DNA of 34,003 nt from an uncultured Phycisphaerae bacterium (GCA_937928595.1 CALGJV010000024.1:1-34003); one strand, 5' to 3'; positions 8,655 to 13,778 are shown, counted from the stretch's first letter. A program made the numbers and translations. Notes: a model not told the origin generated them from the sequence alone.

Positions 8655-9680
8655 TCAGTCCGCGTGCCGCGCCGCGGCCGCCAGCAGCTCGGCCCGCAGC
8701 TCGGCCCGCAGCCATGCCGGGCGGACCACCTCGGCGAACTCGCCGTAGCCCTTCAGCCAGCGCTTGAACTCGACCACGTTCGACAGCCGGAACGTCGCGA
8801 TGAGCACGTCGGCGTCTTCCGGCGACGGGTCGAACAGCGTCGCCTCGCCCGGCTGCCGCCGGAGCTGCTGCGACTCGTGCCACACGCGCTCCTCGATCAG
8901 CTCCGCGACCGGCCCGCTGAACCGCACGACGATCTCCACCGGCGGACCCGCGCCGTGGAATATGCCGAAGCTCCCGCGGAAGTGCTCCTCGAGCCGGAAA
9001 TCCGCCGGGCGCTCGAACGTCCCGGCCGTCGGGGCCGCCGCCGTGATCCGGTTCACCTTGAAGACGCGCAGCGCCGCGGCGCGGTGCGAGCGTCCGACCA
9101 CGAACAGATCGTCGTCGTACAGCACCAGGCCGTAGGGATCCAGGCGGGTCGTGTAGTCCACGCCCCGCCACAGCGCCCGGTAGGTCACCTCGACGGTCCG
9201 AGCCTCGCGGGCGGCGTCGGACAAGAGCCGGATAATGTCGGCCTGCTCCGCGTAGTCCGTGAAGCCGGCCCGCCGCACGTGCAGAACGTCGTCGAGCTCG
9301 CGGAAGTACTCCAGCGCCCGTGCCGGGATCAGCGCCCGGATCTTCTCCAGCAGCGACGCCAGCCCCTCGGCGAAGTGCGTGCCGGCCAGCGGCCGCAGCA
9401 GGTGCTCGGCCAGGTGCAGCGACACGGCCTCGGTCAGTCCCAGCACGAGCGGCCCGCTGCGGAAGAAATCGTGCGGCAGGCGCCAGTAGCGCTTGCCGTA
9501 CTCGTCCTCCTGGTGCTCGAGCGGGAAGCCGACCTCCTCGAGCGCCTCGAAATCGCGCTGGATGGTCCGCTCGGTCACGCCGAGCTCTGCGGCGATCGCC
9601 CGCAGCGGCAGACCCGTGCCGCGCGTCTGGAGCATCCGCAGCAGGTTCCAGTGCCGCAGGATCTGTTCGCCGCGCGCCAT
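8655..9680 (-). CDS. WYL-domain HTH transcriptional regulator
   Basis: This 341-residue regulator has an HTH_11/DeoR-like winged helix at about 8-60 (LPLRAIAAELGVTERTIQRDFEAL) that binds DNA. A WYL domain follows at about 145-225 (VEVTYRALWRGVDYTTRLDPYGLVLYDDDLFVVGRS) and is expected to sense a nucleotide-type or other small ligand. The C-terminal WCX domain (about 240-330) ends in the usual NVVEFKRWLKGYGEFAEVV helix. The start at ATG 9680 puts the HTH at the normal distance from the N-terminus and has GAGGGTG upstream. The longer frame to 9746 adds an atypical leader. It is divergent from the four-gene membrane block, so regulation of that block is possible but unproven. Confidence 0.88.
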   Translation of the reverse strand: MARGEQILRHWNLLRMLQTRGTGLPLRAIAAELGVTERTIQRDFEALEEVGFPLEHQEDEYGKRYWRLPHDFFRSGPLVLGLTEAVSLHLAEHLLRPLAGTHFAEGLASLLEKIRALIPARALEYFRELDDVLHVRRAGFTDYAEQADIIRLLSDAAREARTVEVTYRALWRGVDYTTRLDPYGLVLYDDDLFVVGRSHRAAALRVFKVNRITAAAPTAGTFERPADFRLEEHFRGSFGIFHGAGPPVEIVVRFSGPVAELIEERVWHESQQLRRQPGEATLFDPSPEDADVLIATFRLSNVVEFKRWLKGYGEFAEVVRPAWLRAELRAELLAAAARHAD

Positions 9681-9847
9681 GGGCACCCTCGCCACCCGCC
9701 GATCGGGAGTTATCGGGCATCCTATCGGTTGCCGCGGCGGCGCCAAGTCCGCCGCCCGGCATTGACAAACGCCGCGCGCTTTGCGACCGTTCGCCCGGTG
9801 CGCGCCGCCGGAGCGCCGCGCACCGCCCGCGGAGACGTGACGGCGCC

Positions 9848-10648
9848 ATGCAACACCCCGACGGCCTGATGCTCACGCTCATGCTGCTGTTCGGCGGCGT
9901 GATCCTGCTGTCGCTCTGGCGCGCCCGCCACAAGCTGCCCTACGTGCGGCCCATTCCCGGCATCGTCTCGATCGAGGAAGCCGTCGGCCGCGCCACCGAA
10001 CTCGGCCGCCCCGTCGTGTTCGCCATGGGCGAGGGCGACATCCGCGACATCGTCACGCACGCCTCGCTGTCGATCCTTGAGTACGTCGCGCGGCTGGCCG
10101 CCCGGCTGCGGGCCAGCTTCATCGCGATGGTCCGCAAGCCCGACGTTTACCCGTTCGCCGAGAACATCGTCCGCGACGCCTACCGCGTCGAGGGCGCGGC
10201 CGAGGACTTCCGCCCCGAGGAGCAGGTGCGCTTCCTGTCGGACGACGCCATCGTCTACGCGATGTCCACCGCCCGGCTGATCCAGGAAGCCCCGGCCGGC
10301 TGCGCCCTGTTCTTCGGCGGGTTCTTCTTCACCAGCCTGCTGATGACCGAGCCGGGCGCGCAGTCGGGCGTGCTCCAGATCGCCGGCGACCCGACACTCG
10401 GCCAGATCCCGTTCTTCGTCTGCACGTGCGATTACACCATCATCGGCGAGGAGTTCTTCGCGGCCGGGGCGTACGTCAGCAGCGACCCCACGGTCCGCGG
10501 GGCGCTGGTCGGGCAGGACTTCATCAAGGTCGTGCTGGCGCTGCTCGTGCTGGTCGGCACGGGCGCGCTGCTGCTGGCCGGCGGCGCCGGCGAGGGGCCG
10601 GCGTACGAGACGGCCCGCGGACTCATGAAGTACGTGACGCAGAAATGA
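9848..10648 (+). CDS. DUF6754-type membrane protein
   Basis: This 266-residue protein has one TM helix at about 7-23, a globular domain at about 35-222 and a second TM helix near 227-248. The globular part fits what I recall of the DUF6754 pattern: ATELGRPVVFAMGEGDI, YVARLAARL, VRFLSDDAIVYAM, LFFGGFFFTSLLMTEPGA, and FFVCTCDYTIIGEEFFAAGAYVS. The family has no known function. The repeated GEGD, GGFF and IGEE turns and alternating strands and helices suggest a Rossmann-like fold, which is inference. ATG 9848 is the first start giving a clean N-terminal helix, with only a weak GGAG upstream. It is the first gene of a tight plus-strand block of four. Confidence 0.75.
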   Translation: MQHPDGLMLTLMLLFGGVILLSLWRARHKLPYVRPIPGIVSIEEAVGRATELGRPVVFAMGEGDIRDIVTHASLSILEYVARLAARLRASFIAMVRKPDVYPFAENIVRDAYRVEGAAEDFRPEEQVRFLSDDAIVYAMSTARLIQEAPAGCALFFGGFFFTSLLMTEPGAQSGVLQIAGDPTLGQIPFFVCTCDYTIIGEEFFAAGAYVSSDPTVRGALVGQDFIKVVLALLVLVGTGALLLAGGAGEGPAYETARGLMKYVTQK

Positions 10649-10676
10649 CCCGCGCGGCCGGCGCGGAGAGGCGTGG

Positions 10677-11387
10677 ATGCGCAAGACAGTCGTACGGGTC
10701 GTGACACTGCTGGGCGGGCTGTTCTTCGTGCTCGAGTTCATGCTGCCCGCCGAGCTGCGCCGCCCCGGCGCGGACCGGCCGTACTTCACCAACCCGTTCT
10801 CGCCGTGGCTCAACCTGGCCACGGACCTGGTGATCGTGCTCGGCACGATGGCCTTCCTGCTCGGCCCCATCAACCTCATCCGCAGCCATTTCGGGAATCT
10901 CGTCCGCTGGCGGCGCGGCGCGGTCGAGAGCGCGGTCTTCCTGTTGTTCCTGGCTCTCGGCCTGGGACTGGCCGGGGTGAAGGAGTTTCCCGATTTGAAA
11001 GACGCGCTCGGCCTGGCGGCCGCGAGTGACGCGTTCCAGAGCGGCTACAACCTGCTGTTCTACGGGCTGATGAGCGCGTTCGGCGCGACCAGCATGGCGC
11101 TGCTGGCTTTCTACCTGGTGTCGGCGGCCTACCGGTCGTTCCGGTTCCAGAGCCTCGAAGCGGGCGTGATGATGATCACCGCGCTCGTCGTCCTGCTTGG
11201 GCTGGTGCCGCTGGGCACGTTCCTGACGAGCTGGCTGCCGACCGAGCTCCAGTTGCCGACGTGGGCCGCGTGGATCTTCGCCGTGCCCAACAGCGCCGTG
11301 CAGCGCGCGGTCGTCATCGGCACGTTCGCCGGGGCCTTCGCCGCGGGCCTGCGCCTGTGGCTCGGCGTCGGCCAGAAGACGGAGTGA
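10677..11387 (+). CDS. Six-helix membrane protein, unknown
   Basis: I do not recognise this 236-residue protein. It is strongly hydrophobic with about six TM segments (near 5-23, 42-66, 82-102, 117-150, 157-180, 192-230). Between helices 1 and 2 is a polar loop rich in Pro and Arg, and between 3 and 4 a loop with EFPDLKDALG. No catalytic or transporter motif stands out. A GGAGAGG ribosome-binding site lies 5 nt before ATG 10677. The gene sits 28 nt after the DUF6754 gene and 4 nt before the next gene, so it belongs to the same transcript. It is probably the membrane partner of one of the two globular proteins encoded beside it. Confidence 0.8.
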   Translation: MRKTVVRVVTLLGGLFFVLEFMLPAELRRPGADRPYFTNPFSPWLNLATDLVIVLGTMAFLLGPINLIRSHFGNLVRWRRGAVESAVFLLFLALGLGLAGVKEFPDLKDALGLAAASDAFQSGYNLLFYGLMSAFGATSMALLAFYLVSAAYRSFRFQSLEAGVMMITALVVLLGLVPLGTFLTSWLPTELQLPTWAAWIFAVPNSAVQRAVVIGTFAGAFAAGLRLWLGVGQKTE

Positions 11388-11391
11388 GCCG

Positions 11392-12240
11392 ATGCGGTTT
11401 CTCGCCCACCTGCACCGGATCGACCGCCGCTGGCTGTACGTGGCCACGCTTGTCCTGATGCTCGTGCCCTTTGTCAAGCCGCTGACGCTGCCGGCCGGGC
11501 ACGTGTCGCGCACGACGCGGGCGGCGTTCGAGCTGATCGACAGTTGTCCGCCGGACAAGGTCGTGATCATCGACTCGAGCTGGGACGCGGGCTCGCAGGC
11601 CGAGAACCGCGCCCAGCTCGAAGCGGTGGTCGCCCACCTCTGCCGCCGGAAGATCAAGTTCATCGTGACCTCGCTCGGTGTCACGCCGCTGGGCCCCGAC
11701 TTCGCCCGCGACATCATCCGCCCGCAGGTCGAGCGGGCCGGCTACGAATACGGTCGCGACTGGGTGCAGCTCGGCTTCGTCCAGGGCGTGGCCGGGGCGC
11801 TGGGTCCGGTGATCGACCGCTTCAGCCGCGACCTCTGGGGGCTCTACCCGCGCGACATCCACAACACGCCCGTCGAGCAACTGCCGCTGATGCAGGCCGT
11901 GCGGCGCGGGGCCGACGCGCACGCGCTGTGCTGTTTCACGTACGCCCCGGTCTACGAGTGGATCAGCTTCGCGAACGCCCAGTACGGCCTGCGGCTCGTC
12001 TTCGGCTGCATGACCATCATGTGCCCGGCGTACTACCCGTACATCGACAGCGGCCAGCTCGCCGGCATGCTGGTCGGCAACGTCGGCGCCGCCGAGTACG
12101 AGGCCCTCAACGGCACGGCCGGACGCGGCACCCGGCTGGGCGTGCCGGCGGCCTTCGGCAACGGCGCGGTCATCGCCGCCGCAGTGCTGGGCAACATCGG
12201 CCTGTGGGCCGAGCGGCGGGCGCGGAGGGCCGCGGCATGA
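11392..12240 (+). CDS. Membrane-anchored globular protein, unknown
   Basis: I do not recognise this 282-residue protein. An N-terminal TM helix (about 16-36) precedes a globular domain (about 45-245) with alternating strands and helices. Examples are DKVVIIDSSWDAGSQAENRAQLEAVVAHL and RKIKFIVTSLGVTPLGPDFARDII, which look Rossmann-like. A hydrophobic C-terminal segment (about 252-274, NGAVIAAAVLGNIGLW) is probably a second TM helix before a basic tail. Four cysteines occur: C52, then CC in the ALCCFTY stretch, and C in the GCMTIMC pair. The overall plan mirrors the DUF6754 protein two genes upstream. The start follows the previous stop by 4 nt with GGAGTGAG as SD. The stop overlaps the next start as ATGA. 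Confidence 0.8.
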   Translation: MRFLAHLHRIDRRWLYVATLVLMLVPFVKPLTLPAGHVSRTTRAAFELIDSCPPDKVVIIDSSWDAGSQAENRAQLEAVVAHLCRRKIKFIVTSLGVTPLGPDFARDIIRPQVERAGYEYGRDWVQLGFVQGVAGALGPVIDRFSRDLWGLYPRDIHNTPVEQLPLMQAVRRGADAHALCCFTYAPVYEWISFANAQYGLRLVFGCMTIMCPAYYPYIDSGQLAGMLVGNVGAAEYEALNGTAGRGTRLGVPAAFGNGAVIAAAVLGNIGLWAERRARRAAA

Positions 12241-12995
12241 CCGACACGCCGGTCATCTGGCTCGCCGCTTTCGTCACGGTCGTCGTCTTCAGCTACGCGC
12301 TGAAGGACAGCTACATCTACCGGCTCGTGCAGCACGCCACGCTCGGCGCCACGGTCGGCGTCACGGTCGTCGTCACCTGGAAACAGGTCCTGCTGCCGCG
12401 CTGGTGGGCGCCGATCTGGGCGGCGGCGCAGGGCACGGCGATCGACCCGGCCACCAGCCGGCCGGACTACGGGGGCCTGCTCTGGCTGCTCGCGCTGATT
12501 CCCGGCCTGCTGTGGTATTTTCAGCTCTCGAAGAAATGGTTCTGGCTCAGCACGCTCATCACCGGGCTGTTCGTGGGCACCGCCGCCGGGCTGGCGTTCA
12601 AGAACCAGATCCTGCTGATCATGCCGCAGCTCGCGGCCTCCATCAAACCGCTCAATCCCTTCGTCCGCCCCGACCCGGCCCTGCTGTACGGCCCGGCCTG
12701 GCCCGAGCCCGGCACGCCCGCCGCGTGGGCCGCCGCGCTCAACAACGCGCTGTTCCTCGCCGCCCTGCTGGCGACGCTGTTCTACTTCTTCTTCTCCGTC
12801 CGCACCGACCACCGCTTTCTCCAGGCCCCGCGCCGCTTCGGGCGGCTGGCGATCATGGTCTGCCTCGGCGCGATGTTCGGCAGCACGGTCATGACGCGCA
12901 TGGCCTACCTGCTGGACCGGCTCATGTTCCTCTCGCACGACTGGTGGCAGGAGCAGGTGCTCGTGCTTCTCCCACGCGTCTGGGGCGGGGGCTGA
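12237..12995 (+). CDS. Second six-helix membrane protein of the block, unknown
   Basis: This 252-residue polytopic protein has about six TM segments: near 5-23, 29-52, 75-95, 97-125, 170-193 and 204-232. A long polar, Pro-rich loop (about 130-165, LNPFVRPDPALLYGPAWPEP) lies between helices 4 and 5. It is Trp-rich, especially in the loop after helix 2 (PRWWAPIWAA) and near the C-terminus (HDWWQEQ). I see no known family motif. ATG 12237 overlaps the previous stop by 4 nt, so it is translationally coupled to the globular protein before it. It is the last gene of the four-gene block. About 100 nt of non-coding sequence separates it from queC. Confidence 0.8.
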   Translation: MTDTPVIWLAAFVTVVVFSYALKDSYIYRLVQHATLGATVGVTVVVTWKQVLLPRWWAPIWAAAQGTAIDPATSRPDYGGLLWLLALIPGLLWYFQLSKKWFWLSTLITGLFVGTAAGLAFKNQILLIMPQLAASIKPLNPFVRPDPALLYGPAWPEPGTPAAWAAALNNALFLAALLATLFYFFFSVRTDHRFLQAPRRFGRLAIMVCLGAMFGSTVMTRMAYLLDRLMFLSHDWWQEQVLVLLPRVWGGG

Positions 12996-13097: not shown

Positions 13098-13778
13098 GTG
13101 ACGCCCCCACCGGCCATCGTGCTGCTCTCGGGCGGACTCGACAGCGCCACGACGCTCGCCATCGCCCGCGCCGACGGCTTCGCGCCGCTCGCGCTGAGCT
13201 TCCGCTACGGTCAGCGGCACGCCTGCGAACTCGACGCGGCCCGACGCGTCGCCGCCGCGGCCGGCGTGCGGGAACACCGCATCATCGACATCGACCTGCG
13301 GTCGCTGGGCGGGTCCGCCCTGACGTCGGACCTGGCGGTGCCCAAGGACCGCGATCTCGCCGCCGACGAAATCCCGATCACCTACGTGCCCGCGCGCAAC
13401 ACCATCTTCCTCGCGCTGGCCCTGGCCCTGGCCGAGGTCCGCGACGCCGCCGACATCTACATCGGCGTCAACGCGATCGACTACAGCGGCTACCCGGACT
13501 GCCGGCCGGAGTACCTCGCCGCGTTCGAGCGGCTGGGCGCGCTGGCGACGAAGGCCGGCGTGGAGGGCCGGCCGCTCCACATCCACGCGCCGTTGCTGCA
13601 TCTGTCGAAGGTGGAGATCGTGCGCCGCGGCCTGGCGCTGGGTGTGGATTACAGCCTGACGCGGAGCTGCTACGACCCCGACGCCGCCGGACGCGCTTGC
13701 GGGCACTGCGACAGTTGCCGCCTGCGCCGGGCCGCCTTCGCCGCGCTGGGGCGGACGGACCCCGCCCCGTATCAGTAA
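13098..13778 (+). CDS. queC: 7-cyano-7-deazaguanine synthase QueC
   Basis: QueC converts 7-carboxy-7-deazaguanine to preQ0 with ATP and ammonia, in the queuosine pathway. The 226 residues contain the PP-loop SGGLDS at 11-16, [14 protein letters not shown] at 35-49, the conserved [12 protein letters not shown] (97-108) and [17 protein letters not shown]. The zinc cysteines are C191, C201, C204 and C207 in CYDP...CGHCDSC. The start is GTG 13098, giving the normal short lead before the first strand, without a visible SD. No queD, queE or queF lies next to it. The tgt and queA genes at the right end belong to a segment that looks like another lineage and should not be read as its partners. Confidence 0.95.

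Follow-up and report, generated by a model that had tools for sequence, protein, structure and literature searches.

Closest described systems

The family DUF6754 (PF20539), to which the first protein of the locus described here belongs, is a catalogued DUF that is itself defined by sequence only, and we found no description of its conserved operon, its ATPase partner or its three membrane partners in the literature searched. A second family of relevance is GlmL/MutL (PF13941; methylaspartate mutase accessory protein). Some ASKHA proteins serve as reactivases of B12 enzymes, and GlmL is regarded as a reactivating or assembly factor for B12-dependent glutamate mutase. The ATPase of the present system, termed c4 below, is in this known superfamily, and shares with GlmL the Pfam family and intact ASKHA nucleotide motifs. 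However, c4 is ~600 aa rather than ~460 aa long, falls under all three curated GlmL cut-offs, and is found not with a mutase but with a membrane module and a second cytosolic protein (c5).

Two kinds of membrane machinery resemble the system in layout. Na+-NQR/RNF has in common with it a barrel-sandwich cytosolic subunit, two six-helix subunits and one subunit with an extracytoplasmic domain, whereas in the system conserved cysteines are lacking from c5, P2 and P4, and an ATPase is among the partners. GldFG-type ABC exporters unite a TM-Rossmann-like-TM auxiliary protein, a six-TM permease and a cytosolic ATPase in a similar arrangement, but the ATPase found here is of the ASKHA and not the ABC type.

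Within the open-licence part of PubMed Central, no paper names DUF6754, PF20539 or PF13941, and the literature there on GlmL, anammox complexomes and conserved operons yielded nothing relevant. The eight-gene assembly described below is apparently undescribed.

A four-gene membrane block built on a DUF6754 protein

The window, meaning the whole stretch of 34,003 nucleotides from an uncultured Phycisphaerae bacterium that was analysed, carries on its plus strand (9848-12995) a block of four genes, each open and intact. Their intergenic spacing is 28, 4 and -4 nucleotides, the last value representing a 4-nucleotide overlap of the P4 start with the P3 stop, and these gaps are exactly those given in a preliminary description that proposed four coupled genes. 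The features are as follows:

9848-10648, plus strand: P1, 266 aa; DUF6754 (PF20539); TM, globular domain, TM
10677-11387, plus strand: P2, 236 aa; six-TM membrane protein of a new family, with the conserved motif FyiasAaYRaFR
11392-12240, plus strand: P3, 282 aa; two TMs bracketing a Rossmann-like a/b domain that is predicted to be extracytoplasmic
11554..12111, plus strand: P3 residues 55-240, the Rossmann-like a/b domain in the AlphaFold2 model
12237-12995, plus strand: P4, 252 aa; six-TM membrane protein of a new family

P1 is a clear member of DUF6754, as previously stated, matching the Pfam model at 6.4e-65 and 219 bits (gathering cut-off 27) over profile positions 13-244 of 257. Nothing significant is found for P2, P3 or P4 in Pfam, NCBIfam or PHROG, for P1-P4 or c5 in a sequence-profile search of the PDB, or for P1-P4 among enzyme families in family and profile searches. 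With P1 a DUF and the other three without a confident database match, the statement that none of the four has a known function holds. Conserved positions include, in P3, SGQ..G and a GAAEYE stretch preceding the second TM and, in the P4 family alignment, E32, W103, R106 and R221. The block is flanked in the window by a divergent WYL/WCX regulator gene (8655-9746, minus strand) and by queC (13098-13778, plus strand), neither of which was found recurring next to the block in other loci.

Hydropathy is consistent with the alternation of TM-globular-TM and six-helix proteins that was originally noted. Specifically, P1 has a single strong TM at either end and a borderline segment in its centre, P3 has one TM per end, P2 has six TMs, and P4 has five above threshold and one weaker segment. 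Positively charged residues (K/R bias) flank the globular domain of P1 on the inner face, and many P1 relatives carry an additional signal peptide and an N-terminal extracytoplasmic domain (Fn3-like by eye, with no Pfam match) ahead of the first TM. On these grounds the DUF6754 domain of P1 is predicted to be cytoplasmic. In P3 the charges sit at both termini, and its domain is therefore predicted to lie outside. An AlphaFold2 model of P3 (pLDDT 79.7, pTM 0.77) contains a Rossmann-like domain flanked by two TMs; fold searches with this model gave no Foldseek match at E<=0.001 and a best VIA Z of 8.8, with generic Rossmann-type folds. The AlphaFold2 model of P1, built on a 3-sequence alignment, reached a pLDDT of 37.7.

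Profile-profile comparison with hhalign revealed no homology between P1 and P3 (probability 2%) or between P2 and P4 (probability 1.5%). Given this result, and given that the P1 and P3 domains are predicted to face opposite sides of the membrane, the earlier suggestion of two globular/polytopic pairs is unsupported.

The block is conserved and duplicated as a unit

Our genome set comprised 246 genomes of the window's phylum (probably Planctomycetota) and 14 well-known control genomes; the sampling for the system covers this one phylum plus three Armatimonadota loci. DUF6754 is present in 62 of the 246 and in none of the 14 controls. Rather than being scattered without synteny, the homologues keep the order DUF6754-P2-P3-P4 across 16 families of this phylum as well as in two Armatimonadota genomes, as judged by profile searches of the neighbourhoods. 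P1-P4 also co-evolve, their pairwise distances correlating at r 0.79-0.84, a figure that includes shared phylogeny. The four-gene block is a real unit and more than a chance arrangement.

Eight loci (L032-L037, L051, L081) carry a tandem doubling of the block, whole or in part. First and second copies (f18, f55, f68) occupy largely separate clades in both the P1 tree and a four-gene tree, with the exception of the first copy of L032, which falls outside. This pattern suggests an ancient duplication that mostly took in the entire block. In L054, L067, L068 and L075 (the last at the end of a contig), P2-P3-P4 or some part of this set is found with no P1 beside it, which speaks against the single machine proposed below. 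Neither viral contigs nor plasmids contain a relative of P1 or c5, and there is thus no sign that these genes are mobile-element or phage cargo. One carrier family has genomes of 3-4 Mb with ~41-42% GC and resembles the anammox Brocadiaceae. DUF1559-type prepilins, which we take to be typical of Planctomycetota, are present at two of the relatives' loci (L068, L084) and are the ground for our tentative naming of the phylum.

Four partner families neighbour the block, and c4 and c5 are co-inherited with it

Clustering of the genes that neighbour the block in relatives defined four further families, c4 through c7. The largest, c4, is a MutL/GlmL-like protein (PF13941 at 1e-125). Proteins of family c5 are ~375 aa long, begin with M-G/A-H-AYTPGL and give barrel-sandwich matches (Biotin_lipoyl 9e-7, RnfC_N 2e-5). 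The c6 family consists of soluble proteins of ~105 aa, and c7 of proteins of ~165 aa with two TMs. The complete gene order c7-c6-c4-c5-P1-P2-P3-P4 is seen, for example, in L033, L035, L041, L042, L049 and L050, and re-clustering of ~50 loci produced no further neighbour family that recurs at comparable breadth.

Genomes with P1 tend to hold P3, c5 and MutL as well, wherever these are encoded. P3 is present in 62/62 genomes with P1 but in only 2/184 without it (Fisher 2e-56), c5 in 56/62 versus 3/184 (Fisher 1e-44), and MutL in 57/62 versus 9/184 (Fisher 5e-40); none of the three tests corrects for phylogeny. The window's own family and order offer a stricter control, as P1 is patchy there (6 of 26 genomes) and c5 occurs in exactly those six. 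Two of the MutL-only genomes were read (G235, G197), and their GlmL-type proteins lie outside the c4 clade, scoring 150-164 bits with the c4 model as compared with 630-1061 bits for clade members; in one such genome the gene is apparently beside other genes of the glutamate mutase pathway. The near-complete genome G153 (99%) carries c6-MutL-c5 at C1:270000-286000 (L063) with no detectable DUF6754 or P3, an exception to an almost perfect co-occurrence.

An alternative account would be that the four genes alone are the complete system, and that MutL, c5, c6 and c7 are merely frequent neighbours. Indeed, the block in the window stands by itself between the regulator gene and queC, and P1 occurs without a detected MutL in 5/62 genomes and without a detected c5 in 6/62. 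Most of these exceptions, however, are incomplete or fragmented assemblies, and the co-occurrence holds for unlinked genes, including those of the window's own genome. There, MutL (C17:47257-48699; 440 bits with PF13941), c5 (C3:117089-118210) and c6 (C12:121000-121266) reside on three other contigs, all unlinked to the window. A search of the same genome for c7 found none, although the absence of a family this short and variable is weak evidence. We consider it quite improbable that the four genes suffice. What was initially called a four-gene module is only the membrane half of the system, to which the MutL-like ATPase, c5 and c6, encoded elsewhere in the genome, also belong. Thus, the idea of an undescribed syntenic unit that probably forms one complex survives, whereas its extent as four genes does not.

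Dispersal of the genes in other relatives hints at how the two halves might connect. In some genomes, c6-MutL-c5 form one operon and P1-P4 another (L064-L066 and L039-L040). When the membrane genes themselves are split, P1 stays with MutL-c5 in L084 while P2-P3-P4 are elsewhere in the same genome (L068), and P1 stays with c5 in L038 while P3 is elsewhere (L067). This retention of P1 suggests that DUF6754 is the bridge, but other genomes are split between c5 and P1, and the argument from splits is therefore not uniform. Moreover, L060 and L061 each have a single reading frame that encodes MutL (to about residue 530) followed by c5 (from ~500 to 830), and the two proteins therefore probably bind each other; the fused proteins belong to a divergent lineage that is far from any P1-P4 block.

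The window carries a diverged copy

P1 of the window lies on a long branch that is common only to G145 (61% identity in P1), and it is without several residues that are near-invariant in the family (for example, QFAYAA is AIVYAM, and AETG is TEPG). By comparison, five other genomes of the window's family encode a canonical DUF6754 that is immediately preceded by c6 and followed by P2-P4 as far as the contigs extend. To judge from these sequences, the copy in the window may be a replacement, either diverged or acquired, that works with the resident MutL, c5 and c6. Being both atypical and diverged, it is not the locus from which the system is best defined. Assembly contamination was rejected as an explanation because the GC content of the window (~0.71) equals that of the c5 and c6 contigs (0.71 and 0.70), and because DUF6754 with canonical neighbours is present in the five genomes of the same family. 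Another member of this family, G250, holds a canonical block (L094) together with a second, divergent P1-P2-P3 block (L095; G250:C484:1-9177), whose P4 was recognised via the P4 of the window.

A putative ATP-driven envelope machine

Three motifs of c4 (DcGSTTtK, DIGGATTD and GSGG) are strictly conserved in 28 sequences, and c4 exceeds the PF13941 gathering score. These ASKHA motifs make ATP binding and hydrolysis the likeliest energy input. The candidate identity of c4 as the GlmL of glutamate mutase (NF040745) was rejected, given scores of 228.6 and 218.9 bits in two relatives against a cut-off of 475. In a broader version of this idea, MutL-c5 would use ATP to reactivate or assemble an enzyme, and P1-P4 would constitute the membrane-bound enzyme that it maintains. 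In favour, the c4 clade is related to GlmL (NCBIfam GlmL 1e-67), and MutL-c5 pairs also occur away from any membrane module (L059-L062). Yet c4 misses the cut-offs of GlmL (228.6/475), ornith_Or-4 (210.9/600) and glmL_fam (164/204), neither a mutase nor any other enzyme is a recurrent neighbour of the system, and P1-P4 lack any enzyme family match, all of which make this role unlikely.

The features of c5 raise the alternative of a redox or ion pump. In such a distant Na+-NQR/RNF analogue, c5 would correspond to NqrA/RnfC, P2 and P4 to the two six-helix subunits and P3 to the periplasmic NqrC/RnfG. Weak matches of c5 to RnfC_N and NQRA_N (at best 2e-5 and 0.004) fit this proposal, and two six-helix proteins plus one extracytoplasmic domain mimic the layout. 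However, Cys does not exceed half of the sequences in any alignment column of c5, P2 or P4, no membrane subunit matches a Rnf-Nqr family (P2, P4 and 14 relatives of each were searched), and the MutL ATPase is not part of NQR/RNF. We judge a pump of this type to be very improbable. An ABC exporter with a GldG-type auxiliary was also rejected, since neither the ABC2 permease nor the ABC_transp_aux families of Pfam recognise any of P1-P4; ABC-like genes lie near only a few loci and are not a recurring partner. Consequently, no membrane subunit has been placed in a known transporter or respiratory family.

The distribution of domains on both sides of the membrane is sensory-like, and the system might instead serve in signalling or surface sensing. 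The sensors would then be P3 and the extracytoplasmic domain that P1 relatives carry; P2 and P4 would relay the envelope signal to MutL-c5, which would act as an ATP-dependent switch and not as a motor. An accessory-type patchy distribution and the occurrence of tandem paralogous modules with a single MutL-c5 set are compatible with this role. On the other hand, the operon encodes no recurring effector or regulator domain, and two polytopic subunits are more than a simple sensor needs. A signalling function therefore strikes us as improbable.

We tentatively prefer an envelope machine of a new class, whose MutL/GlmL-like ASKHA-type ATPase and barrel-sandwich adaptor would drive DUF6754-P2-P3-P4, probably for transport or assembly, even though we stop somewhat short of an even chance for this class as a whole. 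It builds on what was observed, namely the order of the genes and their co-inheritance, the duplication of the block, the fusion of c4 with c5, the conserved motifs of the ATPase and the P3 fold class. That the proteins form a physical complex is probable. That the four genes together with c4, c5 and c6 constitute one ATP-driven envelope machine, with P1-P4 as its membrane part, is a proposition that we hold to be evenly balanced, and we lean slightly toward c4 energising the membrane complex. The system occurs in at least two phyla, has undergone tandem doubling in some lineages, and retains its genes jointly even when they are dispersed. To our knowledge, ASKHA proteins are not classical transport motors, which counts against the proposed machine.

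In the proposed machine, P2 and P4, with six TMs each, would build the transmembrane core, and P3 would contribute an extracytoplasmic Rossmann-like domain anchored by its two TMs. A cytosolic sub-complex, made up of the ASKHA ATPase c4, the barrel-sandwich adaptor c5 and their small partner c6, would dock on the highly conserved cytoplasmic domain of P1. ATP binding and hydrolysis by c4 might then act through c5 on DUF6754, from there on P2/P4, and finally on P3, with the movement or assembly of an envelope component as the most likely output. We favour export or envelope assembly on the grounds that the putative complex crosses the membrane, has domains on both sides and is without a redox signature, but as a specific assignment this job is doubtful. 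Among the relatives' loci, no recurring substrate, secreted-protein or biosynthetic gene is found near the system.

The P1-P4 set, despite comprising three orphan families and a DUF, shows a co-inheritance as strict as that of known multi-subunit machines, and its link to a predicted ATPase points to a likely source of energy for these orphan families and defines the list of genes involved. If MutL-type ASKHA ATPases do power membrane complexes, then they would represent an additional kind of energised envelope machinery.

Other genomic contexts of the ATPase and adaptor

A divergent second MutL-c5 pair is encoded in L060 (7275-9749, minus strand), L061 (5310-7817, plus strand), L062 and L059 (4391-7332, plus strand), in some genomes as a fusion of ~830 aa, and in L061 it adjoins mraZ/rsmH-like genes. 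This pair is possibly a separate system with the same ATPase-adaptor combination. FHA-domain-like proteins, recognised by eye from the start of their sequences, are encoded in three families of genomes at L068:10985-12685, L069:8610-10487 and L060:4883-5674, where they lie near split P2-P4, c5 or MutL-c5 loci; they are too few for partner status. In the window's family, c5 lies near trigger factor (tig) and clpP-like genes, as assessed by eye (L058:9090-10217, plus strand; L101, L102 and L103), a conserved context that might reflect chance or might hint at protein biogenesis.
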